A program made the translations under genes and the position numbers. Of a DNA stretch of 24,405 nt, positions 819-19,121 are shown one piece after another. The notes under the pieces are model-generated. The model was not told the DNA's origin and searched no databases. It saw only the letters and a list, made by a program, of their open reading frames with translations. The DNA is from a virus, in IMG/VR virus record IMGVR_UViG_3300008107_000599, positions 1 through 24,405 of that record; one strand, written 5' to 3'. Within the stretch, counting starts at the first letter, position 1. Each line of letters begins with the position of its first letter.

Positions 819-841
819 GGGATACCTCGAATAAGGAGTCT

Positions 842-870
842 ATTATACCACATTAAGGTATTCTACTCAA
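842..870 (-). promoter_or_regulatory. Sigma-70-like promoter of the terminase operon
   Basis: On the minus strand TTGAGT (870-865), a 17-bp spacer and a perfect TATAAT (847-842) lie 24 bp ahead of the terminase start. The expected transcript start is near 835, giving a very short leader. A small hairpin with a GGAA tetraloop (GGGGT/ACCCC, 884-897) lies just upstream of the -35 box. Confidence 0.75.
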
Positions 871-910
871 TACTCTATTATGTGGGGTGGAAACCCCCTA
901 CTACATTGAT

Positions 911-930
911 TGTAACAATTTGTAACATTT
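911..930 (+). repeat. Tandem 10-bp direct repeat, possible operator
   Basis: TGTAACA occurs at 911 and again at 921, exactly one helical turn apart. The first copy is part of TTGTAACAA, a perfect 4+1+4 inverted repeat. The pair lies between the divergent terminase (842-870) and rightward (968-997) promoters, where a regulator could act on both. The 10-mer TTTGTAACAT of the second copy recurs at 6105-6114, next to the leftward early promoter. The operator role is inference; in AT-rich DNA chance is possible. Confidence 0.35.
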
Positions 931-967
931 AGTGATTGATAGTTATGTTAAATTTTTGTTAAACTAC

Positions 968-997
968 TTGACATGACCAATTTAACTTTGCTATTAT
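968..997 (+). promoter_or_regulatory. Rightward promoter of structured-leader copy 1
   Basis: TTGACA (968-973), an 18-bp spacer and TATTAT (992-997). The -35, spacer length and -10 are the same as those at 6101-6072 on the other strand, which precedes the second copy of the leader. The predicted start is near 1004, at the beginning of the conserved leader. Confidence 0.75.
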
Positions 998-1150
998 ACT
1001 GTAGTGAGATTAAGATACGATTATAATTTTAGATAATTCTAGTATCGATGTTCTCACATCTTACACGAGTTCGATTAGACTCTCCTCTCCTCAAGAACGA
1101 TAAACACGATGAAACATAAAGATACTCACTAAACGGTCTATAGAGTATAC
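998..1150 (+). ncRNA. Structured 5' leader RNA element, copy 1
   Basis: About 150 nt directly downstream of the promoter at 968-997, matched in inverted orientation by 6060-5905. Two blocks are nearly identical: 1041-1077 (one mismatch in 37) and 1094-1115 (one mismatch in 22). Supported stems: GATAC/GTATC (1014-1018 with 1042-1046) enclosing TTAT/ATAA with an 8-nt loop; GATGT-NNNN-ACATC directly after; and a 3' hairpin ATACTC/GAGTAT that displays a conserved ACGGTCTA loop. In copy 2 the last stem is built from different bases (CTCTAT/ATAGAG), which looks compensatory. No coding sense is evident. Cis-acting antitermination or translational control is possible; neither is shown. Confidence 0.7.
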
Positions 1151-1170
1151 TTCACAATTTAAGGATAGCT

Positions 1171-1305
1171 ATGTCTGATGATCAAATTCTAGCTCACTTA
1201 CTAATCATAATGGATGACTTCGAGAAAGAATCCAATAGGATTGACCTTAGAGACAATCTTAATGACCTTGTTAGCTACCTTAGTGATTCCGCTGATAAAA
1301 AATAA
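1171..1305 (+). CDS. Small acidic hypothetical protein (44 aa)
   Basis: ATG at 1171 with AGGA six bases upstream, read directly behind leader copy 1. The product (MSDDQILAHLLIIMDDFEKE...) is acidic, probably one or two helices, with no family recognised. It is the only gene on the rightward transcript, which then runs into the convergent end of the leftward operon. It may be a real small regulator, or simply the reporter-like downstream ORF of the structured leader. The good ribosome site and the promoter support expression. Confidence 0.6.
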   Translation: MSDDQILAHLLIIMDDFEKESNRIDLRDNLNDLVSYLSDSADKK

Positions 1306-1353
1306 TTTCGATATTGTTGTCCGTTAGTACCATCAACTTTAACGCCACACCGA

Positions 1354-1383
1354 GGGGGTACAGATATTTTGGGTATACCCCTT
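1354..1383 (+). terminator. Possible terminator between convergent transcripts
   Basis: GGGGTA (1355-1360) pairs with TACCCC (1376-1381), followed by TTT on the plus strand. The inner palindrome GGGTATACCC (1371-1380) is an alternative. It sits between the 44-aa ORF and the dUTPase stop, where a terminator for the rightward transcript is expected. The U tract is short, so efficiency is doubtful. The rest of 1306-1481 shows no gene. Confidence 0.35.
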
Positions 1384-1481
1384 TCCGCAAACACTATATA
1401 TAGATCCAAATCCCGCACAGATAGATTCTGCCTGGGTTTGATAGGGTTTTTCCTGTTTTTGGAGGTTGTAGTAGCTAGGGG

Positions 1482-1856
1482 CTATGGGACACCTAGATCA
1501 GCATACTCATACTTAGCTATTACAAGCTGTGCTATACGCATTAGAGGCTTAACCTCGAACTCATCCTTACTCATGTTAATTAGTATAACTCCAATCTCAC
1601 CCCTATAGTCTGAGTCGATTGTGCCAAAGTGTGCCGTAATTCCATACTTAGCTGCTAGTCCTGACCTTGGTCTAACCTGAGCTTCGTATCCTATTGGTAG
1701 CTCAATTGATATCCCAGTTGGTATAATTACACGTTCTAGTGGTTGTAGTATAATAGATTGAGTTATATTGGCTTGTAAATCCAAGCCTGAGCTATATAAT
1801 GTTGCATATGAAGGTATATCTACGCCATCTGCCTTAGTTATATTAATCTGTACCAT
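1482..1856 (-). CDS. dUTPase-like protein lacking motif V
   Basis: Trimeric dUTPases hydrolyse dUTP to dUMP, keeping uracil out of DNA. The start is taken at ATG 1856, behind a GAGGG site, rather than the upstream ATG at 1871; this gives 124 residues. Motif I is SGLDLQA (23-29), motif II RPRSGLA (62-68), motif III GTIDSDYRGE (78-87) with the catalytic Asp81, and motif IV RIAQL (107-111). The protein stops at LGVP, before the glycine-rich motif V that normally closes the active site (usual family length about 140-150). No other frame downstream restores it. It is the last gene of the leftward operon and overlaps its upstream neighbour. A divergent homologue is at 16967-17338. Activity is uncertain. 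Confidence 0.85.
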   Translation of the reverse strand: MVQINITKADGVDIPSYATLYSSGLDLQANITQSIILQPLERVIIPTGISIELPIGYEAQVRPRSGLAAKYGITAHFGTIDSDYRGEIGVILINMSKDEFEVKPLMRIAQLVIAKYEYADLGVP

Positions 1857-2181
1857 CTTTGGCCCTCGCATGTGTATTACGTATCTTATTTATGAATTCT
1901 AGCTCTGATATCAGGTAGGTTAGGCTTAGGTGACGCTTATAGTCCTCAAATGAGGCCTCAATGAAGGCGTCTTGCTTCTCTATTGTATCCAAGCTCCTCT
2001 CTAGATATAGAAGGTAATCATATGACATCGTTGGATCTCCCATATTATAGTGTTTTGCTTCATATTCCTCAACTAGTGCACATAATCTATCTAGTTCATC
2101 ATAGTTGTCAGTATTGTCCCATATATCATCAATACGCCTGAGTACCTGGTTATACTGCTCTTCTGTCTCAATTATGTTCAT
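1843..2181 (-). CDS. HigA-antitoxin N-domain-like protein
   Basis: Start set at ATG 2181 (AGGTGAG upstream) instead of the in-frame GTG at 2193; 112 residues. The first half (EEQYNQVLRRIDDIWD, then DELDRLCALVEEYEAKHY, about residues 6-49) has the pattern of the N-terminal dimerisation region of HigA/COG5499-type antitoxins. The HTH DNA-binding domain that normally follows is not recognisable; instead there is a helical, acidic C-terminal half. It overlaps the 45-aa gene before it and the dUTPase after it, so translation is probably coupled. An antitoxin-mimic or anti-defence role is inference from a pattern match made by eye. Confidence 0.55.
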   Translation of the reverse strand: MNIIETEEQYNQVLRRIDDIWDNTDNYDELDRLCALVEEYEAKHYNMGDPTMSYDYLLYLERSLDTIEKQDAFIEASFEDYKRHLSLTYLISELEFINKIRNTHARAKDGTD

Positions 2182-2305
2182 CTTCAAACTCACCTAATTC
2201 TATTAGCTCTAGGGCTGCGATTAGTTTATTAATATCATCGTGTACTAGATACTCATTATAGGCTATTGCTGCTAATGTACGTTTAGATCTGATCCTGTAT
2301 CTCAT
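2168..2305 (-). CDS. Small hypothetical protein (45 aa)
   Basis: ATG at 2305 with GGAG about nine bases upstream, overlapping the 3' end region of the HTH gene. The stop (2168) overlaps the start of the HigA-like gene by 14 bases. The N-terminus is basic (MRYRIRSKRTLAAIAYNEYL) and the C-terminus acidic. No family recognised. Its place in a chain of overlapping genes with a ribosome site argues that it is real. Confidence 0.6.
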   Translation of the reverse strand: MRYRIRSKRTLAAIAYNEYLVHDDINKLIAALELIELGEFEDEHN

Positions 2306-2310
2306 TCTAC

Positions 2311-2580
2311 TTATCTCCATGTTTCATTGTAAGAGTCTAGATAGGACTTTAATGCCCTCTTGTAGGTTTGTTCTACCCATAATAGATAACCTGGGAATAC
2401 ATCTACGTAATTGCAGTATGCCCTGTCTAATGCTGCTGGTACTTTCTTACCATCGTACATTACACCTTCTAATGTCTTAAGTTTGACACCTAACTCTGCA
2501 GCAAACTCTTCCATTGTCATATCGCCTCGTGTGGCGAACAACACATCCTCAACTGATTGTGGTAATACTGCCATGTTCAT
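2311..2580 (-). CDS. Small HTH-like protein (89 aa)
   Basis: Start at ATG 2580 behind GGAGGTG. Residues about 18-50 (GDMTMEEFAAELGVKLKTLE, followed by a short helix) have the helix-turn-helix pattern of XRE-type or antitoxin-type DNA-binding domains. The C-terminal 40 residues are aromatic-rich and of unknown role. The start overlaps the stop of the upstream gene by four bases (ATGA-type coupling). It may be a phage transcription regulator; the target is unknown. Confidence 0.6.
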   Translation of the reverse strand: MNMAVLPQSVEDVLFATRGDMTMEEFAAELGVKLKTLEGVMYDGKKVPAALDRAYCNYVDVFPGYLLWVEQTYKRALKSYLDSYNETWR

Positions 2581-2768
2581 TGTACACCTCCATTATTGTT
2601 TATAAGTCCTGCTTGACGTATAATTAGACCGAATTGCATCATCTCTTTCCCTAGTCGTTCGTGTGATCCATGTATTACAAAGTCTTCATATAATGATTGT
2701 ACCACTCTAGTTACTATTTCTGGGTCTTTTTTGATAGCTAATGCTACTTTCTTTAGGTCATTATTCAT
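2577..2768 (-). CDS. Hypothetical helical protein (63 aa)
   Basis: ATG at 2768 with a strong AAGGAGGAG site inside the end of the preceding gene. The product is predicted helical (DLKKVALAIKKDPEIVTRVV) with an amphipathic middle and a polar tail (NNNGG). No family recognised. It overlaps genes on both sides by a few bases, consistent with coupled translation in the leftward operon. Confidence 0.65.
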   Translation of the reverse strand: MNNDLKKVALAIKKDPEIVTRVVQSLYEDFVIHGSHERLGKEMMQFGLIIRQAGLINNNGGVQ

Positions 2769-3315
2769 TTGCTCCTCCTTCTAACTCGTCAGCTAGCTCA
2801 TTTATTAGTTGGTTTAGATCGTCAATCAGTTCATAGTATATATAATCCATACTATGGTCTTCGTTGCGCATTAGACGTGCTATATCAAGTGTATCAGATA
2901 TGTCCTTAACCATTTGCCGACATATTTCTTCTTGTATAGTTATGTTATCATCATCCTTAGCATCTAACTTAGTATGTGTTATTTGTGGCACTTCTTTCAC
3001 TATAACTGACGTTACCTCATTTAATACACGTATAGATTCTATATCAGATGGGGATTGGTAGTCTACATCTAGAGTATCACATAGTAGCTTTTCATTAACT
3101 ATAGGCTCATTCTCAAGGGCATATTTGATATCATTAACTAACTGTAGTAGGTCATCCTTAGATAATGCAACTAGAGGTATAGGTTCCCTATCAAATGCCT
3201 GTATAACTGTTGACTCTGGGTTGTACCTAACCTTCTTTGCTTGGTACAAATGAAAGCTTGGCTGCTCCCCATCTCTATCCATATACTCTATAGATTTAAA
3301 TATTCTTATTGTCAT
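2761..3315 (-). CDS. Hypothetical acidic protein (184 aa)
   Basis: ATG at 3315 behind AGGAGAGGA. The first ~70 residues look beta-rich (MTIRIFKSIEYMDRDGEQPS, then VRYNPESTVIQAFDREPIPL); the rest is helical and strongly acidic, ending in a helix containing LINELADELEG. No enzyme motif, signal peptide or membrane segment was seen. It overlaps the preceding 56-aa gene by four bases and the next gene by eight. Function unknown; probably a cytoplasmic early protein. Confidence 0.7.
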   Translation of the reverse strand: MTIRIFKSIEYMDRDGEQPSFHLYQAKKVRYNPESTVIQAFDREPIPLVALSKDDLLQLVNDIKYALENEPIVNEKLLCDTLDVDYQSPSDIESIRVLNEVTSVIVKEVPQITHTKLDAKDDDNITIQEEICRQMVKDISDTLDIARLMRNEDHSMDYIYYELIDDLNQLINELADELEGGANE

Positions 3316-3482
3316 TTATTATCCTCTCCTAACATATTCTTTAAGAATTCTAGCGATGATTTAAGTTCATCTTTATCTGTACTGTCTTTAAAGTTAGTTC
3401 TCATTCTATCTAGATACTGTAAGATATCTTTGGTATCCATATCTTCCGGAGACTCGTCTCTTACTTTGAATTTGTAGGCCAT
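3312..3482 (-). CDS. Small charged hypothetical protein (56 aa)
   Basis: Start set at ATG 3482 behind GAGGT; a TTG twelve bases upstream is in frame but is itself part of the ribosome-site region. The product (MAYKFKVRDESPEDMDTKDI...) is highly charged and mostly helical, with a possible short coiled coil near DELKSSLEFLKNML. It is the first gene after the internal promoter at 3513-3541, so it leads a sub-operon down to the dUTPase. Confidence 0.65.
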   Translation of the reverse strand: MAYKFKVRDESPEDMDTKDILQYLDRMRTNFKDSTDKDELKSSLEFLKNMLGEDNK

Positions 3483-3512
3483 TGTGTACCTCAACTTCTT
3501 ATCTATAATATA

Positions 3513-3541
3513 ATAGTACTACATTTCTTAAGTAAAGTCCA
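3513..3541 (-). promoter_or_regulatory. Internal promoter of the distal leftward genes
   Basis: On the minus strand TGGACT (3541-3536), 17 bp and TACTAT (3518-3513), with further TATTAT-like sequence just downstream. It lies in the only sizeable gap (113 nt) of the leftward operon, after a hairpin and before the 56-aa gene. Confidence 0.45.
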
Positions 3542-3554
3542 GTAAAATATTTAA

Positions 3555-3573
3555 GGGGACTATTGCTAGCCCC
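3555..3573 (-). terminator. Hairpin after the SSB-like gene
   Basis: GGGG(A)CTA / TAGCCCC forms a seven-pair stem with one bulge and a TTGC loop. On the minus strand it is followed by the AT-rich TTAAATATTTT rather than a clean U run, so it may be a weak attenuator separating the lysozyme/ClpX part of the operon from the distal small genes. Confidence 0.4.
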
Positions 3574-3607
3574 CTCTTTGTATAACTATTATTGTCTTAT
3601 GTTTATC

Positions 3608-3907
3608 TTAGAATGGTGTATCTAGAGAATTGTTTTTAAAAGTTTTAGTATTCTCTTTTTTAAAACCTTTAACGTCTTTAGAATTACTTTCATATACTAC
3701 CTCTAAATTATATGCTTTATATACATTGTCTTGTTTGTCTTTACCTTCGAATGTGTGCCCGAATACTGGTATCTCTACTGATCCATCACTCTGTAGGAAG
3801 GCCTTTAGTTCTTCTTTAGCTATCTTAATTGTACCTTTCAGATATACTTTACCTGAGTCCTTTGCCTTGTTTAGGAACAATCTTGATATAAATTTACGAT
3901 CTGCCAT
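3608..3907 (-). CDS. Possible single-stranded DNA-binding protein (99 aa)
   Basis: ATG at 3907 behind a strong AAGGAGG. The body is predicted beta-rich (KVYLKGTIKI, SVEIPVFGHTF, YKAYNLEVVYES), compatible with an OB fold. The last residues, NNSLDTPF, follow a Lys/Asn-rich linker and resemble the acidic C-terminal tip (DxPF) by which bacterial SSBs recruit partners. No other SSB is visible in the window although a replication module is present. The call rests on pattern and context only; a small decoration protein or unknown is the alternative. It lies just downstream of the ClpX-like gene. Confidence 0.4.
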   Translation of the reverse strand: MADRKFISRLFLNKAKDSGKVYLKGTIKIAKEELKAFLQSDGSVEIPVFGHTFEGKDKQDNVYKAYNLEVVYESNSKDVKGFKKENTKTFKNNSLDTPF

Positions 3908-3921
3908 ATATTAAATCCTCC

Positions 3922-4929
3922 TTATATATACATACGATCTTTCATTAACTTGTCTGCCAGTGTCCTTAATCCACGTGCACCAAGCTTTAAGCGGATTGCT
4001 TCGTCCACTATATCCCAGATCTCCTTCTCGGTTAGTGTTAGATTTAATCCTCTTAATTCCCCTAATATCTTATACTGATTAACTATAGAATCTACTGGTT
4101 CTACCATAATTCTGTAGCACTCTTCTCTGCTTAAGTCATGTAACTCTATAACTTGCCCTATACGCCCTACTAATTCCCTTAGTAATCCAGCTTTAATAGC
4201 TTGTTGTTGATCGAACACAAACTCTTCTGGTTCTTTGGTTTCCGTAGCAAAGCCTATTGTGGTAGGGTTCTTAAGTTTCTTAATAGCTGATTCTCTGTAC
4301 GCAGTGAATGCGCCACCTAGTACCCAAAGGATGTTACGGGTGTCGACTTGGAAGCCGGTATTGCGTCCTTTATCATTGGTTACATTATACTCCTCTTGAC
4401 CCTCAATAAGGGTTAGTAGTTGTTGTTGTACGGCCAATGTACCGACCTTACCTACGCCCTCTTGGTCTGATAGCTTATCAACCTCATCTAAGAAGATGAT
4501 CATGTTTTCCACTCTTTCGGGATTATCGTCGCACCTAGCACATGCCTCAGTTATAATTGAGTCTAGATCTCTACCAACATAGCCTGCTTGAGTGTAAGAT
4601 GATATATCTACGGCCATTACGTCCTTTCCTAATGTACGCCCTATAACCTCTAATAAGTATGTCTTACCTGTACCAGATGGTCCTACTAGCATTAAGTTAG
4701 TTTTCTTTAATCTAGTTTCAGACTTCTTAATCCTTCTATTGTGTTCAGTTATAACCTCATGGTTAACCATAGCAATAGCTAATGCCTTTTTAGCTGCATC
4801 TTGACCAATAACAAACTTATCTAATTCTGCTACCAAATCTGATGGTTTACGTGTACGTTTAAACTGTGGTTCTAGATAAACCTTAACGTCGGGATCTAAG
4901 TCTCTGATGTTGTATAAATTGTTAATCAT
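3922..4929 (-). CDS. clpX-like: ClpX-like AAA+ unfoldase without zinc-binding domain
   Basis: A ring ATPase that unfolds proteins and feeds them to ClpP. The 335 residues align in order with the ClpX core: IGQ box (41-43), Walker A GPSGTGKT (83-90), pore-1 loop GYVG (116-119), Walker B FLDEVDK (146-152), the IGF tripeptide (225-227) that docks ClpX on ClpP, arginine-finger region GRIG (255-258, R256) and sensor-2 GARGLR (317-322). The N-terminal zinc-binding domain of bacterial ClpX (about 60 residues, adaptor and substrate binding) is absent, replaced by ~30 unrelated residues. The ribosome site is weak (GGGTAA). It lies between lysozyme and the SSB-like gene. A full ClpP is encoded at 8096-8686 on the other strand. 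It could act with that ClpP, hijack host ClpP, or both. Confidence 0.93.
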   Translation of the reverse strand: MINNLYNIRDLDPDVKVYLEPQFKRTRKPSDLVAELDKFVIGQDAAKKALAIAMVNHEVITEHNRRIKKSETRLKKTNLMLVGPSGTGKTYLLEVIGRTLGKDVMAVDISSYTQAGYVGRDLDSIITEACARCDDNPERVENMIIFLDEVDKLSDQEGVGKVGTLAVQQQLLTLIEGQEEYNVTNDKGRNTGFQVDTRNILWVLGGAFTAYRESAIKKLKNPTTIGFATETKEPEEFVFDQQQAIKAGLLRELVGRIGQVIELHDLSREECYRIMVEPVDSIVNQYKILGELRGLNLTLTEKEIWDIVDEAIRLKLGARGLRTLADKLMKDRMYI

Positions 4930-4938
4930 AGTTACCCG

Positions 4939-5529
4939 CTAAATTCGTTGAGCTCTGTTTACTTTGTAATCCTCAAAGACGGAGATTATATAATCCATAT
5001 CTGAAGCTCTTACACCTTCTATTATAGCATCCTCGTTAGCTTTGTCAAGGAAAATAAATGTTTCTATCAATCTTCTTACTAGAAGACCTCTAATCTCTTT
5101 CTTACCAGCATATCTCCATCTACCAAACTCTTGTGATATATCCTCTACTCTACTATCTGGTATCCTAGATCCTTTATGCCTAGATAATAATTTAAATAGT
5201 GTAGATCCTCTAAAGTTTCCTACGCCTATATTAAAAACAAGGCTTACTAGTGCGTCAAACTGGCTTTGAGTAAATATAACTCCTACCCTATCAATCTCTG
5301 CAATGAAACCTACCAAATCCAACTCTAATAGCCTCATTATCTGTGCGTCAGTAAGGGATTTAACCTCATCACTATTTGATATACCAGTAACTTTATGCAA
5401 GTTAGGATCATTATCCAATATAAGATGACCTACACCTATAGTATCTAGACCAGCACTATCTTTGTACCGTTTGTTACTGATTCCCTCTAAGTCCATGATT
5501 AATCTAATTCCGGCTGAAGATATCTGCAT
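4939..5529 (-). CDS. T4-type lysozyme (GH24 endolysin)
   Basis: Cleaves the MurNAc-GlcNAc bond of peptidoglycan for host lysis. The GH24 catalytic triad is complete with family spacing: Glu15, Asp24 (eight residues between) and Thr30 (five between), in DLEGIS...KDSAGLDTIGVGH. The C-terminal part (FNIGVGNFRGSTL, then FGRWRYAG) matches the usual helical lobe; 196 residues is within the normal range. No signal peptide or SAR anchor is seen, so export should need the holin. Unusually it is in the early-type leftward operon with ClpX and not beside the holin (17702-18142). Its ATG overlaps the stop of the upstream gene (TAATG). Confidence 0.93.
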   Translation of the reverse strand: MQISSAGIRLIMDLEGISNKRYKDSAGLDTIGVGHLILDNDPNLHKVTGISNSDEVKSLTDAQIMRLLELDLVGFIAEIDRVGVIFTQSQFDALVSLVFNIGVGNFRGSTLFKLLSRHKGSRIPDSRVEDISQEFGRWRYAGKKEIRGLLVRRLIETFIFLDKANEDAIIEGVRASDMDYIISVFEDYKVNRAQRI

Positions 5530-5801
5530 TACTCTACCTCCTCATAATTGCGTGGGGATTCTTGACGTAGTTTGATTTTTAACGTACGTAATACTACATT
5601 TAGCATCCTTAGTGTTATTTTACCGCTTCTAACCATATTACTAAGCACTTCTGCACTAGTACTATTACCAAGCATATCTGATACATAGCCGTAATCGTAG
5701 TAGGTTGTTATGTATTTATCTAATAGTACAAAGAAACCTTCGTGGTCCCTTAATGATAAGGCTTCATTCATCCTATCTATCATAGAAAATTTATCTGTCA
5801 T
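5529..5801 (-). CDS. Small HTH protein, antitoxin-like
   Basis: First gene of the leftward operon, 90 residues, ATG at 5801 behind AGAGGTG. Residues about 40-78 (VSDMLGNSTSAEVLSNMVRS, then a helix ending in LRTLKIKL) match the pattern of the addiction-module antidote/XRE family, in which the HTH is followed by a 'LxALGxKL'-like helix. The ~40 N-terminal residues are helical and aromatic. A 17-bp palindrome (5816-5832) overlaps a promoter just upstream, so autoregulation is plausible. A phage early repressor-like regulator or an antitoxin mimic are both possible; family assignment was by eye. Confidence 0.55.
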   Translation of the reverse strand: MTDKFSMIDRMNEALSLRDHEGFFVLLDKYITTYYDYGYVSDMLGNSTSAEVLSNMVRSGKITLRMLNVVLRTLKIKLRQESPRNYEEVE

Positions 5802-5815
5802 AACACACCTCTATT

Positions 5816-5854
5816 ATATACTTTAAGTATATCACACATATACATATATTACAA
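5816..5854 (-). promoter_or_regulatory. Second leftward promoter with palindromic operator
   Basis: On the minus strand TTGTAA (5854-5849), 17 bp and TATACT (5831-5826). A perfect 17-bp palindrome (ATATACTT-T-AAGTATAT, 5816-5832) covers the -10 box and lies directly upstream of the start of the small HTH gene. This is the classic arrangement for autoregulation. In RNA from the upstream promoter the same bases form an eight-pair hairpin just ahead of the ribosome site. Confidence 0.45.
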
Positions 5855-5904
5855 GATAAATATAATAGATACAGATATCCTTAAGCATTATTATTTTAGT
5901 TTAT

Positions 5905-6060
5905 GAGTACCTCTATTAGACCGTGTATAGAGTAACTATTAGTTTCATTGTGTTTATCGTTCTAGAGTAGAGAGTATTTTAATCGAACTCGTGTAAGATG
6001 TGATAACATCGATACTCTTATTATCTATTAGTATAACTCGTATCTTGAGTCTACTACAGT
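5905..6060 (-). ncRNA. Structured 5' leader RNA element, copy 2
   Basis: Inverted counterpart of 998-1150, transcribed leftward from the promoter at 6072-6101. The 37-nt core is at 6016-5980 and the second block at 5963-5942. It keeps GATAC/GTATC, the inner TTAT/ATAA with an 8-nt loop, the GATGT-NNNN-ACATC hairpin, and a 3' hairpin (CTCTAT/ATAGAG) showing the ACGGTCTA loop. Between core and second block the sequences differ more. About 100 nt of AT-rich leader follow before the first gene at 5801. As in copy 1, the element begins close to the predicted transcript start. Function is not known; promoter-proximal antitermination RNA is the closest analogy. Confidence 0.7.
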
Positions 6061-6071
6061 TAGCTTCTAGT

Positions 6072-6101
6072 ATAATAGCAAGTTTAAAATAGCCTTGTCA
6101 A
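6072..6101 (-). promoter_or_regulatory. Leftward promoter of structured-leader copy 2
   Basis: Minus strand TTGACA (6101-6096), 18-bp spacer, TATTAT (6077-6072): the same boxes and spacing as at 968-997. The transcript would start near 6065 and carry the leader, then the HTH/lysozyme/ClpX operon. Confidence 0.75.
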
Positions 6102-6160
6102 GGGTTTGTAACATAATTATTGTATAAAAATAACTTGACTTTTTACGAATATTGAATCTA

Positions 6161-6177
6161 GCTAGGTTCCACCTAGC
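6161..6177 (+). other. Short perfect hairpin in the divergent intergenic region
   Basis: GCTAGG-TTCCA-CCTAGC, six pairs with a five-base loop, between the leftward promoter and the first rightward gene. No U tract follows, so it is not a typical terminator; it may be a leader hairpin or an operator. The intergenic region 5802-6256 otherwise holds the leader element, promoters and no supported gene. Confidence 0.35.
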
Positions 6178-6206
6178 ACAGGAGCCTACTAAAGATTTTA
6201 CTTGTA

Positions 6207-6235
6207 TTGATATTTTTTTAGGAGTACAATAATAA
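6207..6235 (+). promoter_or_regulatory. Candidate rightward early promoter
   Basis: TTGATA (6207-6212), 17 bp and TAATAA (6230-6235), or TAATAT three bases later, ahead of the first rightward gene at 6257. A TTGACT at 6135-6140 is an alternative -35 but has no good -10 partner. Weak call. Confidence 0.35.
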
Positions 6236-6256
6236 TATAACCAAAGAGTTAATAAA

Positions 6257-6358
6257 ATGAAAAACAATAACGAACTAGAAAACCTAACACTAAGATCAGT
6301 AACAGTATATGTATTAATAATACTAGGAGTAACTCTACTTGTAGCTTTAATCGGGTAG
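6257..6358 (+). CDS. Tiny membrane protein (33 aa)
   Basis: First gene of the rightward early operon. A hydrophilic N-terminus (MKNNNELENLTLRS) is followed by one hydrophobic segment of about 18 residues (VTVYVLIILGVTLLVALIG) to the end. The ribosome site is weak (AAAGAG). No family recognised. It is the first of several one-helix proteins in this operon; an inner-membrane location is inferred from hydrophobicity alone. Confidence 0.5.
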   Translation: MKNNNELENLTLRSVTVYVLIILGVTLLVALIG

Positions 6359-6377
6359 GTGTCGCCAGGAGGAAGAA

Positions 6378-6458
6378 ATGAATTCAACAGAAATATATAA
6401 ACTAGTAGCCTTCTTAAGTTATGTAGGCATAATTGTAGTAACAATATTAATGGGGTAA
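6378..6458 (+). CDS. Tiny membrane protein (26 aa)
   Basis: ATG at 6378 behind a perfect AGGAGG, the strongest sign that this very short frame is translated. Sequence MNSTEIYKLVAFLSYVGIIV, then VTILMG, is nearly all one transmembrane helix. It ends four bases before the next start. No family recognised; the role is unknown. Confidence 0.55.
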   Translation: MNSTEIYKLVAFLSYVGIIVVTILMG

Positions 6459-6462
6459 TAAA

Positions 6463-6648
6463 ATGTTAGATGAATTTTATATAGCACAACAAAGGGACAG
6501 TAATAGAATAATACTATCATTAGTAATAATTGCTGTAGTACTTATAACTCTAATATATATCTTTGCACCAGAATTAGGTATAGAGCAGAGCTTAATCGGC
6601 TCAGATACTGACATGCCTAATCATTTTGAAGATGGTAGACATTTTTAA
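6463..6648 (+). CDS. Small one-TM membrane protein (61 aa)
   Basis: A charged N-terminus (MLDEFYIAQQRDSNR) precedes a single hydrophobic segment at about 16-35 (IILSLVIIAVVLITLIYIF) and a polar acidic tail (SDTDMPNHFEDGRHF). The arginine before the helix suggests N-terminus in the cytoplasm. The start follows the previous stop closely. No family recognised; possible roles include superinfection exclusion or membrane takeover, but nothing in the sequence decides. Confidence 0.65.
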   Translation: MLDEFYIAQQRDSNRIILSLVIIAVVLITLIYIFAPELGIEQSLIGSDTDMPNHFEDGRHF

Positions 6649-6658
6649 ATAAAATGTA

Positions 6659-6687
6659 TTGACTTCGGTTTAGAAAAGAGCGATACT
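6659..6687 (+). promoter_or_regulatory. Candidate early promoter
   Basis: TTGACT (6659-6664), 17 bp, GATACT (6682-6687), in the 87-nt gap before the gene at 6736. Confidence 0.4.
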
Positions 6688-6735
6688 TAAGTTATAGAGG
6701 GAATTAACCCTCACAGAATAAAGTAGGAAAATAAG

Positions 6736-7032
6736 ATGACCAAGATTCAAAGCCCATTCATAATCGCCACAGCAGCAGGCGTGGGTGTAGTAGCTGCAGA
6801 CGCAGCTTGGTTGGTTGGTGAACTACTTACACACTTCCAAGTATTGACTGTAGACCAATATGTAATATATAGACTTGTTATATTAACCTTATTAATAGTT
6901 GGTGGTTTAATTTGTGCCTACAGTATTAAAGTATATTTAAGCAATGGTTACTTAAGAGCCGATAACGAAGCTCACAAAGAACACATGAAACAAAGTATAC
7001 AACAAAGAAAACGTAATAAAATTTTCCAATAG
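6736..7032 (+). CDS. Two-segment membrane protein (98 aa)
   Basis: Two hydrophobic stretches, about residues 8-31 (alanine/glycine/valine-rich) and 43-66 (YVIYRLVILTLLIVGGLICA), then a basic, Gln/Lys/Arg-rich cytoplasmic-type tail ending in QQRKRNKIFQ. TAGGA lies upstream of the ATG. The layout is holin-like in a general way, but its place in the early operon argues against a late lysis role. No family recognised. Confidence 0.65.
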   Translation: MTKIQSPFIIATAAGVGVVAADAAWLVGELLTHFQVLTVDQYVIYRLVILTLLIVGGLICAYSIKVYLSNGYLRADNEAHKEHMKQSIQQRKRNKIFQ

Positions 7033-7041
7033 GAGGAAGCC

Positions 7042-7314
7042 ATGTTTATATATTATAAAGATTTCGTAACTGATGACACATTAGGTTGGAGCGATGTAGC
7101 AGTAAATGACGAAGAAAACCAAGTAATGTTAGTAAAAGGTTCCGAATTAGATAGCTATTTAGAGTCTTTAGAAGACGAAGTACAACATAACGAAGCTATG
7201 TACGAATTACTAAAAGCCCACACAAGTAAATCCAAAGTAGTAAGCTTTGAGATGTATAAAGAAATATATGGACACTATAAAGATTCTCTTGACATTCTTG
7301 AGAAATTACAATAA
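7042..7314 (+). CDS. Acidic hypothetical protein (90 aa)
   Basis: ATG at 7042 behind AGGAGG. Very acidic (DDTLGWSDVAVNDEENQ, then SYLESLEDEVQHNEAMYELL) and mostly helical after residue 30. No membrane segment and no recognised family. Small acidic early proteins of phages often act as inhibitors or DNA mimics, but here that would be a guess. Confidence 0.65.
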   Translation: MFIYYKDFVTDDTLGWSDVAVNDEENQVMLVKGSELDSYLESLEDEVQHNEAMYELLKAHTSKSKVVSFEMYKEIYGHYKDSLDILEKLQ

Positions 7315-7337
7315 ACTTAATATAAGAGGTAAATACG

Positions 7338-7451
7338 ATGACAACTTTAATATTAGTAAGCGTAGCTTATTTAGTAATACCAGCAACACTAAAACTTGCA
7401 CTAGAAACATCAGCAGAAAGAAAGGCACATAGATATGGCAGACATAAATAA
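7338..7451 (+). CDS. Tiny membrane-associated protein (37 aa)
   Basis: ATG at 7338 behind AGAGGT. One hydrophobic N-terminal helix (MTTLILVSVAYLVIPATLKL) followed by a basic tail (AERKAHRYGRHK). Its 3' end overlaps the start of the HNH gene (7435) in another frame. No family recognised. Confidence 0.5.
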   Translation: MTTLILVSVAYLVIPATLKLALETSAERKAHRYGRHK

Positions 7452-8109
7452 AAACAAAGATAAATGCGCCGGACGTAGGGATAGCCTTAAATCAGCTACC
7501 CCTTCCTGGCTAACAGTAGAACAAAAGACACATATTAATAAGTTCTATGATTTAGCAAAACATCTAAGCGCAACAACAGGCGTACAGCATGAAGTAGATC
7601 ATATAATACCAGTTAATAATCCAATAGTATGCGGACTACACGTACCAGCTAACTTACAGGTTATAACTCACGCACAGAATAAAGAAAAAGGTAATGATAT
7701 ACGTTATGAGGCAGAGCCTGGATCTATAACTATAAAAGATATAGAAGGTCTTACCTCAATACGTAATAGAGGTAAGTTCGTTAAAGGTGTTTCAGGAAAT
7801 GCTAATGGTAGACCTAAAACTGTTAAGATAGCTAAAGATCAGCAGGCCACACTCAATGCAATATTTGATGAAGCTGATGGGGATGCAGTTAAGTTCCAAC
7901 AATTGATATTGAAAAATGGTAGTAAGCTTAACTTAGACTTAAGTACAGCAATGAAATTAGCTAAGGAACTATCTGTATACCAAACACCACGTAAGGCTAG
8001 TATAGAAACCAAGAACGAAGATGTTAAGAATTATGTGATACAATACAGTATACCAGCCAAAGAAGAACCTAAAGTAATTGATCATGAGGATAACGATGAC
8101 CAACAATAG
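7435..8109 (+). CDS. HNH nuclease fused to a terminase-small-subunit-like (DUF5681) domain
   Basis: Residues about 45-90 form an HNH nuclease: EVDHIIPV (53-60), LHVPANLQ (68-75) and KEKGN (83-87) give the His-Asn-Lys/His-type signature. Residues 115-200 begin with FVKGVSGNANGRPK, the N-terminal signature of DUF5681/terminase-small-subunit-like proteins, and end with the helix region LAKELSVYQTPRKASIE common in those proteins. An acidic tail closes the 224 residues. HNH nucleases working with terminase are known in packaging; here both appear on one polypeptide. The gene is in the early rightward operon, far from terL. It overlaps the ClpP gene by 14 bases. It could instead be a homing-type HNH that captured a DNA-binding domain. 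Confidence 0.7.
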   Translation: MADINKNKDKCAGRRDSLKSATPSWLTVEQKTHINKFYDLAKHLSATTGVQHEVDHIIPVNNPIVCGLHVPANLQVITHAQNKEKGNDIRYEAEPGSITIKDIEGLTSIRNRGKFVKGVSGNANGRPKTVKIAKDQQATLNAIFDEADGDAVKFQQLILKNGSKLNLDLSTAMKLAKELSVYQTPRKASIETKNEDVKNYVIQYSIPAKEEPKVIDHEDNDDQQ

Positions 8110-8686
8110 AATTATACCAACAACATACGAAGTAAGCGACAAGGGTGTCAAAGCCATGGATGTTTATTCCAGATTACTCAGGGAACGCATCATATTTGTT
8201 AATGGCGAAGTTAATCATTTAATGTCTGATGATATAATAGCCCAGTTATTATTATTAGAATCAGAAGATAAGAATGCTGATATTTATATGTACATTAACT
8301 CACCTGGTGGATGCGTAGTATCAGGAACATCTATAGTAGATACGATGAATCTAATCAAGCCAGACGTAGTTACAGTTGTAACTGGATACGCATGCTCTAT
8401 GGGCTCAGTAATAGCTTCCTCAGGAACATTAGGTAAAAGGTTTATATTACCAAATGCTCAGTTCATGCTACATCAGGTTTCAGCAGGAACGCGTGGTAAC
8501 GTACAGGATATGGAAGCATCGTTCGAACACACTAAAAAACTTAACAAAAAACTTATGCAAATATTAGCTGATAATACTGGTCACACACTTGGTAAGATCC
8601 TAAAAGATACTACAAGAGATTTATGGTTGGATGCAGAGGCATCAGTTAATTACGGCCTAGTAGATTCAATAATGAAAAAGAGGTAG
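8096..8686 (+). CDS. clpP: ClpP-type serine protease, complete
   Basis: Barrel-forming peptidase that degrades proteins fed by ClpX/ClpA. The start is set at ATG 8096 (AGGA nine bases upstream) rather than a TTG at 8078 inside the previous gene; 196 residues, the length of mature bacterial ClpP. The whole ClpP core is collinear: VYSRLLRERIIF (23-34), INSPGG (67-72), nucleophile Ser101 in GYACSMGS, His126 in MLHQ, Asp175 in DTTRD, and YGLVDSI (186-192). Ser-His-Asp spacing equals that of E. coli ClpP (97/122/171). It is therefore closer to a cellular ClpP than to the ClpP-like prohead proteases, and it is not next to capsid genes. Its natural partner is the ClpX-like protein at 3922-4929. Confidence 0.95.
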   Translation: MTNNRIIPTTYEVSDKGVKAMDVYSRLLRERIIFVNGEVNHLMSDDIIAQLLLLESEDKNADIYMYINSPGGCVVSGTSIVDTMNLIKPDVVTVVTGYACSMGSVIASSGTLGKRFILPNAQFMLHQVSAGTRGNVQDMEASFEHTKKLNKKLMQILADNTGHTLGKILKDTTRDLWLDAEASVNYGLVDSIMKKR

Positions 8687-8688
8687 TT

Positions 8689-8787
8689 ATGGATAATAGA
8701 AATGAATATATAATGTTTTTGATGTTCTTAGTATCCTCATTCACTTATATAGTAATGTTTATAATTTTATCAGGGCTTATACAATGA
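8689..8787 (+). CDS. Tiny membrane protein (32 aa)
   Basis: Begins two bases after the ClpP stop; AGGTAG upstream is the likely ribosome site. A polar start (MDNRNEY) is followed by a long hydrophobic helix (IMFLMFLVSSFTYIVMFIIL). The stop overlaps the next start (ATGA), so the two are probably co-translated. No family recognised. Confidence 0.5.
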   Translation: MDNRNEYIMFLMFLVSSFTYIVMFIILSGLIQ

Positions 8788-8894
8788 TAACTAAATTAAG
8801 AAATATACTAGTGTTTATTATATTACCATCCTATATAGTAGGTATGATAACATTCCTCTATCTAGCAATTACGTTTGGTATTAAATTATATTAA
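8784..8894 (+). CDS. Tiny membrane protein (36 aa)
   Basis: Coupled to the preceding gene by ATGA. Basic N-terminus (MITKLRN), then about 25 hydrophobic residues with a proline kink (ILVFIILPSYIVGMITFLYL). It ends nine bases inside the convergent nuclease gene and just before the terminator at 8918-8948, so it is the last gene of this transcription unit. Confidence 0.5.
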   Translation: MITKLRNILVFIILPSYIVGMITFLYLAITFGIKLY

Positions 8895-9260
8895 GAACGA
8901 TACATCGAAAGCTTTAGGTCCAGTTGTAAAAACCAGCTGGACTTTTTTATTGTGATATGTTTGAAAATACGCCATCTTGACCTTCATCTCAGGAGTTAAC
9001 ATACCCTTGACATCTATTATATATTCCTTACCACTATTACCTATAACTACAAAATCTGCAATGTAAGCCATCTTTAACTTACCATCCATATTAGGTAATG
9101 CATATCTTACTTGTTCCTTGATACTTTTTATCTGCTTAAGCTCTAGCATCCTCACTAGTGTCATTGCGTACTCAGCCTCAGACCTTGAGTCATACTTACG
9201 ACCATTAACAGTAACCTTTACGTTATTAAATCTAGATCGTTTAGTAAATCTTGTTGACAT
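8886..9260 (-). CDS. DUF1064-type PDDEXK nuclease
   Basis: Small restriction-fold nuclease of the DUF1064 phage family. Residues 22-31 (KYDSRSEAEY) give the conserved Glu28; IADFVV carries Asp69 and IIDVKGM carries Asp83-x-Lys85, together the PD-(D/E)xK site. The C-terminal segment KKVQLVFTTG is also typical. It is the only minus-strand gene within the rightward early region. The ATG at 9260 has AGAGGA upstream; a weak promoter (TTGCAT-N18-TAATAT on the minus strand, 9327-9298) may serve it. A plus-strand terminator is embedded in its 3' end and a plus-strand promoter overlaps its start. A junction-resolving or host-DNA-degrading role is inferred. Confidence 0.8.
   Translation of the reverse strand: MSTRFTKRSRFNNVKVTVNGRKYDSRSEAEYAMTLVRMLELKQIKSIKEQVRYALPNMDGKLKMAYIADFVVIGNSGKEYIIDVKGMLTPEMKVKMAYFQTYHNKKVQLVFTTGPKAFDVSFLI
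8918..8948 (+). terminator. Intrinsic terminator inside the convergent nuclease gene
   Basis: GTCCAGTTG (8918-8926) pairs with CAGCTGGAC (8934-8942) with one wobble and a 7-nt loop, followed by TTTTTT (8943-8948). It ends the ClpP/small-membrane-protein transcript. The same bases encode the conserved VQLVFTTGPK region of the minus-strand nuclease. Confidence 0.8.
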
Positions 9261-9282
9261 TATACATCCTCTGTGTTACACT
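9254..9282 (+). promoter_or_regulatory. Promoter of the recombination genes
   Basis: TTGACA (9254-9259), 17 bp and TACACT (9277-9282), 40 bases before the YqaJ start. The -35 box overlaps the start codon of the divergent nuclease gene (9260), so polymerase binding and nuclease expression may interfere. It follows the terminator at 8918-8948, marking a new transcription unit. Confidence 0.65.
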
Positions 9283-9321
9283 GAATAGTGATGATACATA
9301 TTACCATACAAATGGGGTAGG

Positions 9322-9975
9322 ATGCAAGTATTTAAATTTACCAACGGTTCTCCAGAGTGGCTACACAAACGTAGACAGTATTTAACTGCTACCGAAGTTG
9401 CATCTTTATTTGGATTGAATCCATATAAGTCAGCCAATAAACTAATCAAATCCAAACTCATACCTGAGCCGCCATTTGATAGTATACATATGCGCGCAGG
9501 AAGAATCTTTGAGAGTTCTGTATTTATGGATTTACGTGAACGAGGTATTATTGCTAAACAACCCGGAGACGGTAATGTAGTAATGATTGCGCATGATACC
9601 GTTAAGATATCGGCAAGCTTAGATGGCTATATAATTAGTGAAGAAGGTAATCATATAGTAGAGGCTAAGACTACAATAGAGAAAATACGTGAGTGGGATT
9701 CAAATCCACCCATTGCATACATTCTACAGGTACAGACTCAATTAATGATTAGTGGATATAAGTCAGGTATCCTGGCTTGTCTAAGCCTTACCGCCCCATT
9801 TCCTGGAATAGGATATGAGATACAACCTAATAAAATAATACATGATCTTATACTAGAAGAGACCAATAGATTTTGGAATTGTTTAGAGAATAATAAGAAC
9901 TTTGTAGTGCATCAACCTAGTAAAAGAATTATCCTACAGCATATATACGACGGTATAGAACTGCTATATAATTAG
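9322..9975 (+). CDS. YqaJ-type viral recombinase exonuclease
   Basis: 5'-3' alkaline exonuclease that resects double-stranded ends for single-strand annealing. Early residues (SPEWLHKRRQYLTATEVASL, 10-29) are the family start; GRIFE (60-64), Asp101 in SLDGY, Glu114-x-Lys116 in VEAKTT, and the Gln-rich helix QVQTQLMISGY (136-146) complete the lambda-exonuclease-like active site. The 217-residue length is normal. It is paired with the ERF annealing protein at 10904-11374, a common phage two-component recombination set. GGGGTAGG lies at the start. Confidence 0.88.
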   Translation: MQVFKFTNGSPEWLHKRRQYLTATEVASLFGLNPYKSANKLIKSKLIPEPPFDSIHMRAGRIFESSVFMDLRERGIIAKQPGDGNVVMIAHDTVKISASLDGYIISEEGNHIVEAKTTIEKIREWDSNPPIAYILQVQTQLMISGYKSGILACLSLTAPFPGIGYEIQPNKIIHDLILEETNRFWNCLENNKNFVVHQPSKRIILQHIYDGIELLYN

Positions 9976-9978
9976 TTC

Positions 9979-10007
9979 TTGACTTTTTGTACATACTGAT
10001 ATAATAT
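9979..10007 (+). promoter_or_regulatory. Promoter upstream of the 89-aa gene
   Basis: TTGACT (9979-9984), 17 bp, TAATAT (10002-10007). The predicted transcript start (about 10014) falls on the first possible ATG at 10014, which argues for the downstream ATG at 10035 as the true start. Confidence 0.7.
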
Positions 10008-10034
10008 AGTTATATGTACATGAGGATATATAAG

Positions 10035-10301
10035 ATGAAAACTAATGTAAGCGATTTACTAGAGATATTAGATACACTTAGAAAGAACCAGCTTAGACAA
10101 GATGATTACGGATCCGAATATAAAAGACTGTGGTTAGCAGTAATTGTTTACGGTATAATAGACTTACAATCTTCAGATAGATTTCTAAGAAAAGACGCTA
10201 AGGAATTTTTTAATAGCGACTATCTAAGAGATATATGTAAACAAATAGATATTGACTACTTAAAATTATATGATAATCTAGTAGTTAGATCTCTGATATA
10301 G
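10035..10301 (+). CDS. Hypothetical helical protein (89 aa)
   Basis: Start chosen at ATG 10035 with GAGGA upstream, because the promoter at 9979-10007 places the transcript start at about the alternative ATG (10014). The product is charged and helical (VSDLLEILDTLRKNQLRQDD, then SDRFLRKDAKEFFNSDYLRD). The C-terminal half resembles small phage proteins of unknown function with an 'AxxFF.sd...IC..l.id' pattern, often found near recombination genes. No catalytic motif seen. Confidence 0.65.
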   Translation: MKTNVSDLLEILDTLRKNQLRQDDYGSEYKRLWLAVIVYGIIDLQSSDRFLRKDAKEFFNSDYLRDICKQIDIDYLKLYDNLVVRSLI

Positions 10302-10309
10302 AGGATAAT

Positions 10310-10894
10310 ATGAATACAATATTCAAACAAGCAATAGTATTAGTAAGCGCAGTGGCAATATCCACATCAATGCTTTATACTGCTTATCAATACGCCGAGC
10401 CAGAGCCTATCGATGCTAATTCATGTGTAATATATAATGGTGAGGTAAACCAGCAAATGGTAGATAGTGTAAAGAAACAGCTGTTGGGAAAGGTTTCCAA
10501 ACCCTGCATTAATCTAACTACTTATGGCGGAGAATTAGAATCTATGGTAGATGTAATTGCTCTACTGAGAAGCATTACAGGAAGCTTCGATATCATTGTA
10601 CCTAAATATGTAATGTCTGCCGGGGCAATCATACTAGCTCACGCAGATCATATATACATAAATAGTCCAGCAGTGGTTCTATTCCACACCCCACGTATAG
10701 CAGATAGGGATGGGCTATTAGTAACTGAGCCTAAATTTAATACAGCATTTAACAAGTACTTACTAAATAGTACATCAGCACGTAAAGCACTCACAGAAGA
10801 ACAGAAGTTCGCATACATTAATGGTATGGATATTATCTTGACATCTACTGAGATTCGTGAGAGAATAGGACATAACAGAGTAAAAATATTATAG
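10310..10894 (+). CDS. Membrane-anchored ClpP/SppA-fold serine protease-like protein
   Basis: 194 residues with an N-terminal hydrophobic anchor (about 5-25) and then a ClpP-fold domain. TYGGELESM (71-79) takes the place of the SPGG strand, Ser103 in VMSAGA is the likely nucleophile, and His126 in LFHTP the general base. The third residue is unclear (Glu181 or Asp174 near the end). Only two cysteines (39, 66) flank the first strand and could form a disulfide if the domain is exported. It resembles the membrane-anchored SDH/ClpP-class proteins rather than the cytoplasmic ClpP at 8096-8686. AGAGGA precedes the ATG; the ERF gene follows ten bases later. Substrate unknown. Confidence 0.75.
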   Translation: MNTIFKQAIVLVSAVAISTSMLYTAYQYAEPEPIDANSCVIYNGEVNQQMVDSVKKQLLGKVSKPCINLTTYGGELESMVDVIALLRSITGSFDIIVPKYVMSAGAIILAHADHIYINSPAVVLFHTPRIADRDGLLVTEPKFNTAFNKYLLNSTSARKALTEEQKFAYINGMDIILTSTEIRERIGHNRVKIL

Positions 10895-10903
10895 GGGGAA
10901 ACT

Positions 10904-11374
10904 ATGAATAGAAGTGAATCAATAGGTAAGTTAGCTACCGCTCTAGTAAAAGCACAGCTAGCAATGGGATCAGCTAAGAAAGATGCAGCTAACCCATTCT
11001 TTAAATCTAAATACGCCGACTTAGCAGAGGTAGTCTCTGTAGTCAAAGAGCCATTACTTAAAAACGGAATCGCGTTCCTACAGATAGTAACAGAAGCAGG
11101 AGTAGAGACAACGCTAGTACACGAAAGTGGTGAGTTTATATCTGGTACCACGCCCGTAGTTGTAGCTAAACAGAACGACCCACAGGCCTTAGGTAGTGCA
11201 ATAACATACGCTAGAAGATACGGACTACAGGCAATGTTAGGCATTCCTGCTGAAGATGATGACGGAGAAAAGGCAATGGGAAGACAAGCCGCAGTTAAGT
11301 CAGTAGCCCAGGCACCTGGATTTAAAAAATCAGATAAAGCCTTTGCACCAACAGGAGACGGCTTCGACTTCTAA
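10904..11374 (+). CDS. erf: ERF-family single-strand annealing protein
   Basis: Anneals complementary single strands resected by the YqaJ exonuclease. The ERF core is clear: NPFFKSKYADLAEVVSVVKE (30-49), LLKNGIAFLQ, then SGEFISG and DPQALGSAITYARRYGLQAM with the conserved GSAITYARRYGL box, and EDDDGEKA. The C-terminal tail ends GDGFDF, acidic with terminal Phe, like the tip of SSB proteins that recruits partners. Strong GGGGGA ribosome site. Confidence 0.92.
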   Translation: MNRSESIGKLATALVKAQLAMGSAKKDAANPFFKSKYADLAEVVSVVKEPLLKNGIAFLQIVTEAGVETTLVHESGEFISGTTPVVVAKQNDPQALGSAITYARRYGLQAMLGIPAEDDDGEKAMGRQAAVKSVAQAPGFKKSDKAFAPTGDGFDF

Positions 11375-11394
11375 ATAACTTATAAGGTTGTACC

Positions 11395-13176: not shown

Positions 13177-13181
13177 ATATG

Positions 13182-13210
13182 TTGACACCGGTTTTATTGC
13201 GTAGTATCCT
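13182..13210 (+). promoter_or_regulatory. Promoter with short leader and AGGAGAACAACA start module
   Basis: TTGACA (13182-13187), 17 bp, TATCCT (13205-13210), with the ATG at 13236 exactly 31 bases after the first base of the -10. The ribosome-site/start stretch AGGAGAACAACAATGA is identical to that at 15849-15864, where the same spacing is kept. Confidence 0.65.
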
Positions 13211-13235
13211 TAAATCATAACCCAGGAGAACAACA

Positions 13236-13460
13236 ATGAAAAATATAATAGAAACACCTAGCGAGAACAGAATCAAAACCATCTTAGGCTCTATTTATAA
13301 AAACGTAAATACCCTAGAAGATTTTTCTCCAAAAAATAAAGCATTAAAAAGTTTTATAAAATATCATTTAAACATAGTACATAACGAACACACTAGCTTA
13401 TCTCAGTTAGAGAAAGTTGACGCTATCTTTAATAACATGGTATCTAAAATTAATAAATAG
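13236..13460 (+). CDS. Small basic hypothetical protein (74 aa)
   Basis: First gene after the promoter at 13182-13210, with an AGGAG site. Basic and helical (SPKNKALKSFIKYHLNIVHN); no recognised motif. It is followed within ten bases by the AdoMetDC-like gene, with AGGAGG between. Function unknown. Confidence 0.65.
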   Translation: MKNIIETPSENRIKTILGSIYKNVNTLEDFSPKNKALKSFIKYHLNIVHNEHTSLSQLEKVDAIFNNMVSKINK

Positions 13461-13469
13461 GAGGACAAC

Positions 13470-16613: not shown

Positions 16614-16617
16614 AGCC

Positions 16618-16785: not shown

Positions 16786-16787
16786 TC

Positions 16788-17338: not shown

Positions 17339-17340
17339 TC

Positions 17341-18142: not shown

Positions 18143-18151
18143 ACTAAACCT

Positions 18152-19120: not shown

Positions 19121-19121
19121 C

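Follow-up and report, generated by a model that had tools for sequence, protein, structure and literature searches.

A trimmed ClpX-like unfoldase in a small phage that also encodes a ClpP

Introduction

The 24,405-base IMG/VR virus record IMGVR_UViG_3300008107_000599, the whole of which was analysed and is referred to here as the window, carries genes for a ClpX-like AAA+ unfoldase and for a ClpP peptidase, and raises the question of what a small phage might do with both. A preliminary description of this DNA had seen in them an orthogonal degradation machine with altered substrate choice. Our answer, to which we give a rough probability of 0.52, is that the unfoldase is a minimal ClpX-type motor that would dock on ClpP and retarget degradation. 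What is shown are the sequence features, their conservation in two lineages and a failure to find canonical ClpP in one of these; ring formation, docking, degradation and the change of substrate are all inferred. The two genes are:

3922-4929, minus strand: ClpX-like AAA+ unfoldase of 335 residues, lacking the zinc domain, the RKH loop, the usual form of the pore-2 loop and some 38 residues at the C-terminus
8096-8686, plus strand: ClpP of 196 residues (PF00574), overlapping the upstream HNH-type gene by 14 bp

The comparisons draw on a closed genome of the same phage, from the near-identical contig G002, and on a sister phage, both described below.

The ClpX-like protein

The ClpX-like protein has all of the motifs claimed for it in the preliminary description, namely Walker A (GPSGTGKT), Walker B (IIFLDEVDK), the Arg finger (GR within AGLLRELVGRIG), sensor 2 (GARGLR), the GYVG pore loop at codons 116-119 (4573-4584), which is followed by R instead of E, and the IGF docking tip I225-G226-F227 at codons 225-227 (4249-4257); sensor 1 is also present. 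In the sister protein the tip is MGF, and G-F-A at the tip is identical in the two while most of that loop has diverged. The NCBIfam ClpX model NF003745 matches with an E-value of 8.8e-72, but its 242 bits fall short of the curated 359, and the 206 bits of TIGR00382 fall short of 370.75, so that the NCBIfam equivalog cut-offs are not reached. HslU was considered and rejected, as the HslU model gives 125 bits (cut-off 362) against the 242 for ClpX and the I-domain is missing; the HslU match falls into three stretches, as expected for a protein without that domain.

The losses were assessed in an alignment of the window and sister proteins with E. coli ClpX and ten others, 8 jumbo-phage ClpX included. 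Neither protein has the N-terminal Cys4 zinc domain, which in ClpX has an established adaptor role. Its absence from the window protein had been noticed in the preliminary description and is confirmed. The match to NF003745 begins at profile position 56, and no upstream extension could add the domain, as only 9 bases separate the end of the endolysin gene from the clpX ATG. Where ClpX has GRKHPQQE in the RKH loop, the window protein has GRNTG and the sister DRVKEGG. In both the pore-2 loop is shortened and its signature SITRDVSGEGVQ lost, and both end one residue past the position of E. coli Tyr385 with the loss of about 38 residues, the sister protein being trimmed in the same way as that of the window. 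Among the best 80 of 570 confirmed bacterial ClpX loci, an uneven sample that is mostly from Betaproteobacteria, the zinc motif is present in all 80, and RKHP and DVSGEGVQ in 79 each. Loss of RKH is not by itself unique, as the jumbo-phage ClpX proteins of PAC2, SCTP-2 and LR756504 also deviate in that loop. PMC12383707 describes the RKH loop as unique to ClpX, and discusses the roles of ClpX loops in recognition of the ssrA tag.

With three recognition elements lost or changed, the altered substrate choice suggested in the preliminary description is probable. We refer to the 3922-4929 product as a ClpX-like unfoldase and not as ClpX proper, since it failed several of the tests that define ClpX, and it probably works like ClpX.

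The part of clpX that is shared with a further contig, G003, has 5 nucleotide differences, all at third codon positions, and residues 151-335 are 100% identical in the two proteins. Silent differences and an identical protein make clpX look selected. The clpP gene is invariant across the near-identical contigs and is hence uninformative on selection. Chance or decayed open reading frames (ORFs) were rejected as an explanation for the locus, given E-values far beyond chance, intact motifs and the silent variation, and both genes look functional.

The canonical ClpP and a second ClpP-fold protein

The 8096-8686 product is a ClpP in the Pfam sense, PF00574 (CLP_protease, peptidase S14) matching with an E-value of 9.8e-67 and 224.8 bits against a cut-off of 20.2. 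It is under the NCBIfam subfamily and equivalog cut-offs for ClpP (NF001368, 239.6 against 249; TIGR00493, 217.3 against 308.6), as are several jumbo-phage ClpP in the case of NF001368. The best listed phage match, in Staphylococcus phage SpP, is 52% identical. The catalytic triad is Ser101 (8396-8398), His126 (8471-8473) and Asp175 (8618-8620). The earlier claim of a complete ClpP with E. coli triad spacing and mature length is borne out, as in the alignment S101/H126/D175 have the same spacing as S97/H122/D171 of E. coli, R174-D175 is kept, and the start aligns with the first residues of mature E. coli ClpP, without the 14-residue propeptide. There are alternative in-frame starts at 8084 (ATG) and 8078 (TTG), but the 8096 start is favoured because GAGG ends six bases upstream of it. 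We took 15 positions to represent the pocket for docking of the IGF tip, and 10 of these are the same as in E. coli (R26, L27, E30, L52, Y64, Y66, T83, F116, L118 and R196).

ClpP-like proteins of phages are, according to the preliminary description, usually prohead proteases encoded beside capsid genes, and the name “head maturation protease” is carried by 7 of the 11 PHROG families matched by this ClpP. A role in capsid maturation is nonetheless highly improbable here and was rejected on gene position and relatives. In the closed genome clpP lies among the replication genes, on the strand opposite to that of the capsid gene and 12.7 kb away from it; that clpP is not beside capsid genes had been argued from the window in the preliminary description. 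The clpX gene is not near the capsid gene either. Canonical ClpP is missing from the sister, which has an 83% identical capsid protein, and from all five named genomes with a related portal, and the solved structures closest to it in sequence are those of bacterial ClpP of the housekeeping type.

PF00574 has two matches in the closed genome at E 0.01 or below, the canonical ClpP and a second protein that we call mClpP:

10310-10894, plus strand: ClpP-fold protein (mClpP) with a hydrophobic N-terminal segment and Ser103/His126/Asp174

The search thus gave no further ClpP-type head protease in that genome at this threshold; other protease families were not searched. The sister has a counterpart of mClpP that is 30% identical, with Ser, His and Asp kept in both phages, and among 50,697 phage records tblastn gave no match to mClpP at E 1e-5. 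The structure model is weak (pLDDT 57), and its ClpP matches only back up the sequence profile. On the basis of a modest hydropathy peak (1.75 and 2.24) mClpP is perhaps membrane-anchored, and it could be a membrane protease of the SppA/NfeD kind.

The sister phage

Contig G001 (IMGVR_UViG_3300042691_012197, loci L014-L016) has 54,719 bases, of which those up to about 39.8 kb are from the sister and the remainder from the window phage. It looks like a chimera in which two related phages meet within near-identical tail genes. Another contig, G005 of 22.8 kb, matches the sister exactly over 20.5 kb (sister 2358-22887), and in a further piece over 208-18761, and as it repeats this region of G001, the early region of the sister with its ClpX has been seen twice. 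The structural half is known only from within the chimera, the last stretch of which may come from the window phage. The tail-end genes at 17917-19567 have 96% DNA identity to those with which the sister part of G001 ends, most other genes having far less, which suggests recent exchange of tail genes, although this may be partly an artefact as the chimera joins nearby.

Between the sister and G002 there are 38 reciprocal best ORF pairs, at least three of them antisense ORFs in tail genes. The pairs include ClpX (47-48% identical), endolysin, the small protein that follows ClpX, and mClpP. The block of 90-residue protein, endolysin, ClpX and SSB-like protein is inverted between the two genomes, and the other 34 pairs keep their orientation. 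No canonical ClpP was found in the sister, where PF00574 gives only mClpP and tblastn has no match at E 10 or below; the HNH gene of the sister abuts a RecE-like gene, the place between the two being taken in the window phage by clpP and a gene for a resolvase.

The one sister genome that was found thus keeps ClpX without canonical ClpP, and the obligate orthogonal ClpX-ClpP pair of the preliminary description is not supported. That description had held that relatives carrying one gene without the other as a rule would refute it, and the sister, a single case and not a rule, answers to this only in part. Since the sister lacks canonical ClpP, we suggest that the phage ClpP is dispensable, and that either host ClpP serves in the sister or the function is not degradation.

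The second of these possibilities leads to an alternative in which the ring is a remodeller that acts without ClpP, unfolding or disassembling a phage complex, for example at replication, the IGF tip being a relic and the phage ClpP working separately or with a host ATPase. Besides the retention of ClpX without canonical ClpP, this is favoured by the presence of the sister clpX on the replication-gene strand, and by the small protein with an SSB-like tail that follows it in both phages. A relic should however have decayed along with the other ClpX-specific elements, and the IGF/MGF tip has been kept while these were lost, so that we consider the remodeller unlikely.

As canonical ClpP was found in only one of the two lineages, one might also think of recently captured genes that are functionally neutral. 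This is very improbable, because ClpX is common to both at 48% identity with its motifs intact, all five of the differences mentioned above are silent, and the ClpP has kept its triad and most of its pocket.

Proposed mechanism

A retargeted unfoldase that feeds ClpP is the simplest mechanism, since the motor, pore-1 loop and docking tip are complete while the parts that recognise ssrA have been lost or changed. The 3922-4929 protein would form an ATP-driven ring that pulls proteins through the GYVG pore, with the IGF tips docking on the hydrophobic pockets of the ClpP barrel. With its zinc domain, RKH loop and pore-2 loop lost or changed, the protein would be freed from host adaptors and ssrA-tagged substrates and directed to substrates chosen by the phage. 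The barrel would be supplied in this phage by its own ClpP (8096-8686), and in the sister presumably by the host. Support comes from the ATPase and translocation motifs and from the IGF/MGF tip, which two phages have retained although their ClpX proteins share only 48% of residues. The ClpP triad and the 10 conserved pocket positions, the loss of recognition elements that nearly all of the sampled bacterial ClpX have, and the signs of selection on clpX also speak for it.

Several observations weigh against ClpP-coupled degradation. The absence of canonical ClpP from the sister is one. The IGF loop is shorter than that of E. coli, and ring assembly could suffer from the missing C-terminal end of the small domain. 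Five of the 15 pocket positions differ from E. coli, four having the hydrophobic residues L53, L86, V94 and M193, and the fifth T96 in place of Met92, the least conservative of the pocket changes in the phage ClpP. Finally, clpX and clpP are on opposite strands in the window and so are transcribed separately. The preliminary description saw in this a means of setting the dosage of each gene, and the arrangement holds here but is special to this lineage, given the inversion of the endolysin-ClpX block relative to the sister.

Retention of the docking tip and most of the ClpP interface with loss of recognition loops would also be seen if the trimmed ClpX, perhaps with mixed phage and host barrels, captured host ClpP and blocked or displaced host ClpX or ClpA to stop host proteolysis. 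This fits both lineages, with or without a phage ClpP. However the ATPase and pore-1 motifs have been kept, for which a pure blocker would have no use, and we regard capture of host ClpP as quite unlikely.

We put forward more tentatively, as a possibility that we would not yet favour, that small phages carry a distinct lineage of stripped-down viral ClpX, which has shed the known ClpX-specific recognition elements, kept motor and docking, and, as a natural retargeted degrader, commandeers whichever of host or phage ClpP is there to destroy a particular host or phage protein in the course of infection. If the proposed mechanism is right, the motor and docking functions of ClpX have been naturally parted from substrate choice within 335 residues, an old question becomes directly testable, namely which parts of ClpX suffice to unfold proteins and couple to ClpP when the RKH and zinc elements are gone, and phage-owned ATP-dependent proteolysis would extend beyond the giant phages. 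The two natural settings, with and without a phage ClpP, are suited to asking whether a phage unfoldase uses host ClpP.

Neighbouring genes and promoter-like sites

The genes and sites around clpX and clpP are:

3608-3907, minus strand: protein of 99 residues, the next gene downstream of clpX in both phages, with DTPF as its last residues (...GLPF in the sister)
4939-5529, minus strand: endolysin (Phage_lysozyme), in both phages the gene just upstream of clpX
5021-5048, minus strand: promoter-like site inside the endolysin gene (TTGACA-16-TATAAT, extended by TG), some 90 bp upstream of the ATG of clpX
5529-5801, minus strand: protein of 90 residues, first gene of the shared endolysin-clpX block, 36% identical over 45 residues with that of the sister
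7435-8109, plus strand: HNH/endonuclease VII-like protein with a DUF5681-like stretch below the Pfam cut-off, upstream of clpP, which it overlaps

The x-PF tail of the 99-residue protein resembles the tail of SSB proteins, a likeness that does not establish its identity. The protein has no PHROG or Pfam match at E 0.01, and its predicted structure (pLDDT 45) is not interpretable.

The site upstream of clpX has the sequence of a perfect extended sigma-70-type promoter and is the only 12/12 match in the closed genome, against 0.075 expected in 40 first-order Markov simulations. The same simulations gave 0.1 for sites of at least 11/12 with TG, of which 4 were seen, and sites of at least 9/12 are no commoner than in shuffles (38 against 38.2). 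The perfect site has no counterpart near the sister clpX, where the best nearby site is 10/12 and further upstream; 12/12 sites are present elsewhere in the sister genome. A conserved clpX promoter was dropped for this reason, and the site is weak evidence. The RNA fold of the divergent intergenic region gave no signal (z -0.32).

The phage genome and its affiliation

G002 has 39,257 bases with an exact repeat of 103 bases at the ends, and because of this repeat it very probably represents the whole genome, 39,154 bases (about 39.15 kb) in permuted form, although IMG/VR classes it as linear. The G+C content is 38%. The phage is podovirus-like, with a module of structural genes that follows the HTVC010P pelagiphage type and is similar in gene order, the portal being 36-43% and the capsid protein 27-36% identical to those of the listed Pelagibacter phages. 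Pelagibacter is the host of these structural relatives, and PMC6811365 links freshwater SAR11 to HTVC010P-related phages; both statements concern the hosts of relatives of the window phage.

Window positions 1-1871 differ from G002 and G003 by indels near 697-855 and 1494-1501, and the dUTPase has 129 residues in the window and 147 in G002. One further gene among the replication genes may be mentioned, its sister partner being 52% identical:

13470-13856: protein resembling S-adenosylmethionine decarboxylase (PF02675 at 48.3 bits, cut-off 25)

Distribution

The preliminary description proposed database searches and trees for both proteins; searches were made with both, and the tree covers ClpX. 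In the tree of 27 sequences those of the window and sister group together at 100/100, apart from bacterial and jumbo-phage ClpX, but the exact placement of the pair is unsure because the branches are long. A pattern scan of IMG/VR with both ClpX proteins, which can miss relatives, confirmed 5 loci in 4 contigs from 103 pattern matches.

Among 11 related or structurally similar records one has this ClpX and one a PF00574 gene (mClpP), G005 in both cases; several of the 11 are short fragments, so that absences carry weight only for the five named phage genomes and a 42-kb contig of unstated completeness. The five named genomes with a related portal, of HTVC010P type, have no match to this ClpX and none to PF00574. 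The capsid-bearing fragments L042, L043, L045 and L046 lay outside the ClpX and ClpP model searches.

The raw match counts of 234 and 1,550 among the 50,697 phage records probably overstate the number of phage carriers, because the collection includes bacterial carry-over. MD-2021a (L057), labelled an Acinetobacter phage, has the bacterial tig-clpP-clpX order and was set aside as probable carry-over. The unverified record MT835536 has a full ClpX with zinc domain and ClpP just upstream, and is labelled bacterial in the tree. Fragments with matches attributed to phages of Listeria, Staphylococcus, Enterococcus and Escherichia may be carry-over too. In Prevotella phage Lak-C1 (L049:1501-3477) the ClpX frame is of 740 residues, its Walker B being split by a long insertion in frame (FLDE/C...TGN/CDK) that looks like an intein.

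Comparison with known systems

That a phage may carry both ClpX and ClpP is already known from jumbo phages. Of nine ClpX-bearing records of jumbo or huge phages, eight match ClpP too, with E below 1e-60, although these nine were picked from best hits and the fraction is not a rate. Jumbo phages with both include Lak, phage G, Atu_ph07, Phosso, the PA5oct-like PAC2, SCTP-2 and LR756504. Atu_ph07 is reported to encode ClpX, a Clp proteolytic subunit, ClpA, ClpB and ClpS, for which the authors propose roles in replication or assembly (PMC6102473), some jumbo phages are said to have ClpP and ClpX (PMC7824862), and the freshwater siphophage P26059A is said to have ClpP (PMC5964084); passages of PMC6811365 and PMC8163748 make no mention of Clp. 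SpP and XaC1, two records chosen for their ClpP, have no ClpX match. Among the listed matches in the open-licence literature (titles and starts of abstracts), we found no description of a small-phage ClpX without zinc domain or without RKH loop.

The jumbo-phage genomes are of 286-636 kb, in contrast to about 39 kb for the window phage, and none of their ClpX proteins groups with the window protein in the tree. The zinc domain is kept in seven of the eight that were aligned, the exception being LR756504, which has lost it but keeps a C-terminal segment. HTVC010P-type pelagiphages resemble the window phage in structural genes and differ in their replication genes. With regard to HslU/HslV, the window ClpX belongs to the same Clp/HslU branch of AAA+.

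The E. coli ClpX-deltaN construct, which presumably keeps the C-terminal segment, offers a further comparison. As in 3HWS, it is likewise a core without the zinc domain, but it has the RKH and pore-2 loops and, according to PMC12383707, is an engineered single-chain protein and not a natural one. In the case of E. coli ClpXP itself, the likeness lies in the AAA+ motifs, GYVG and the IGF tip, and for ClpP in the triad and most of the pocket residues. However E. coli ClpX has the zinc domain, the RKH loop, a standard pore-2 loop and the last 38 or so residues, all of which the window ClpX lacks, and the E. coli genes are together as tig-clpP-clpX, whereas in the window phage clpX and clpP are apart and on opposite strands.

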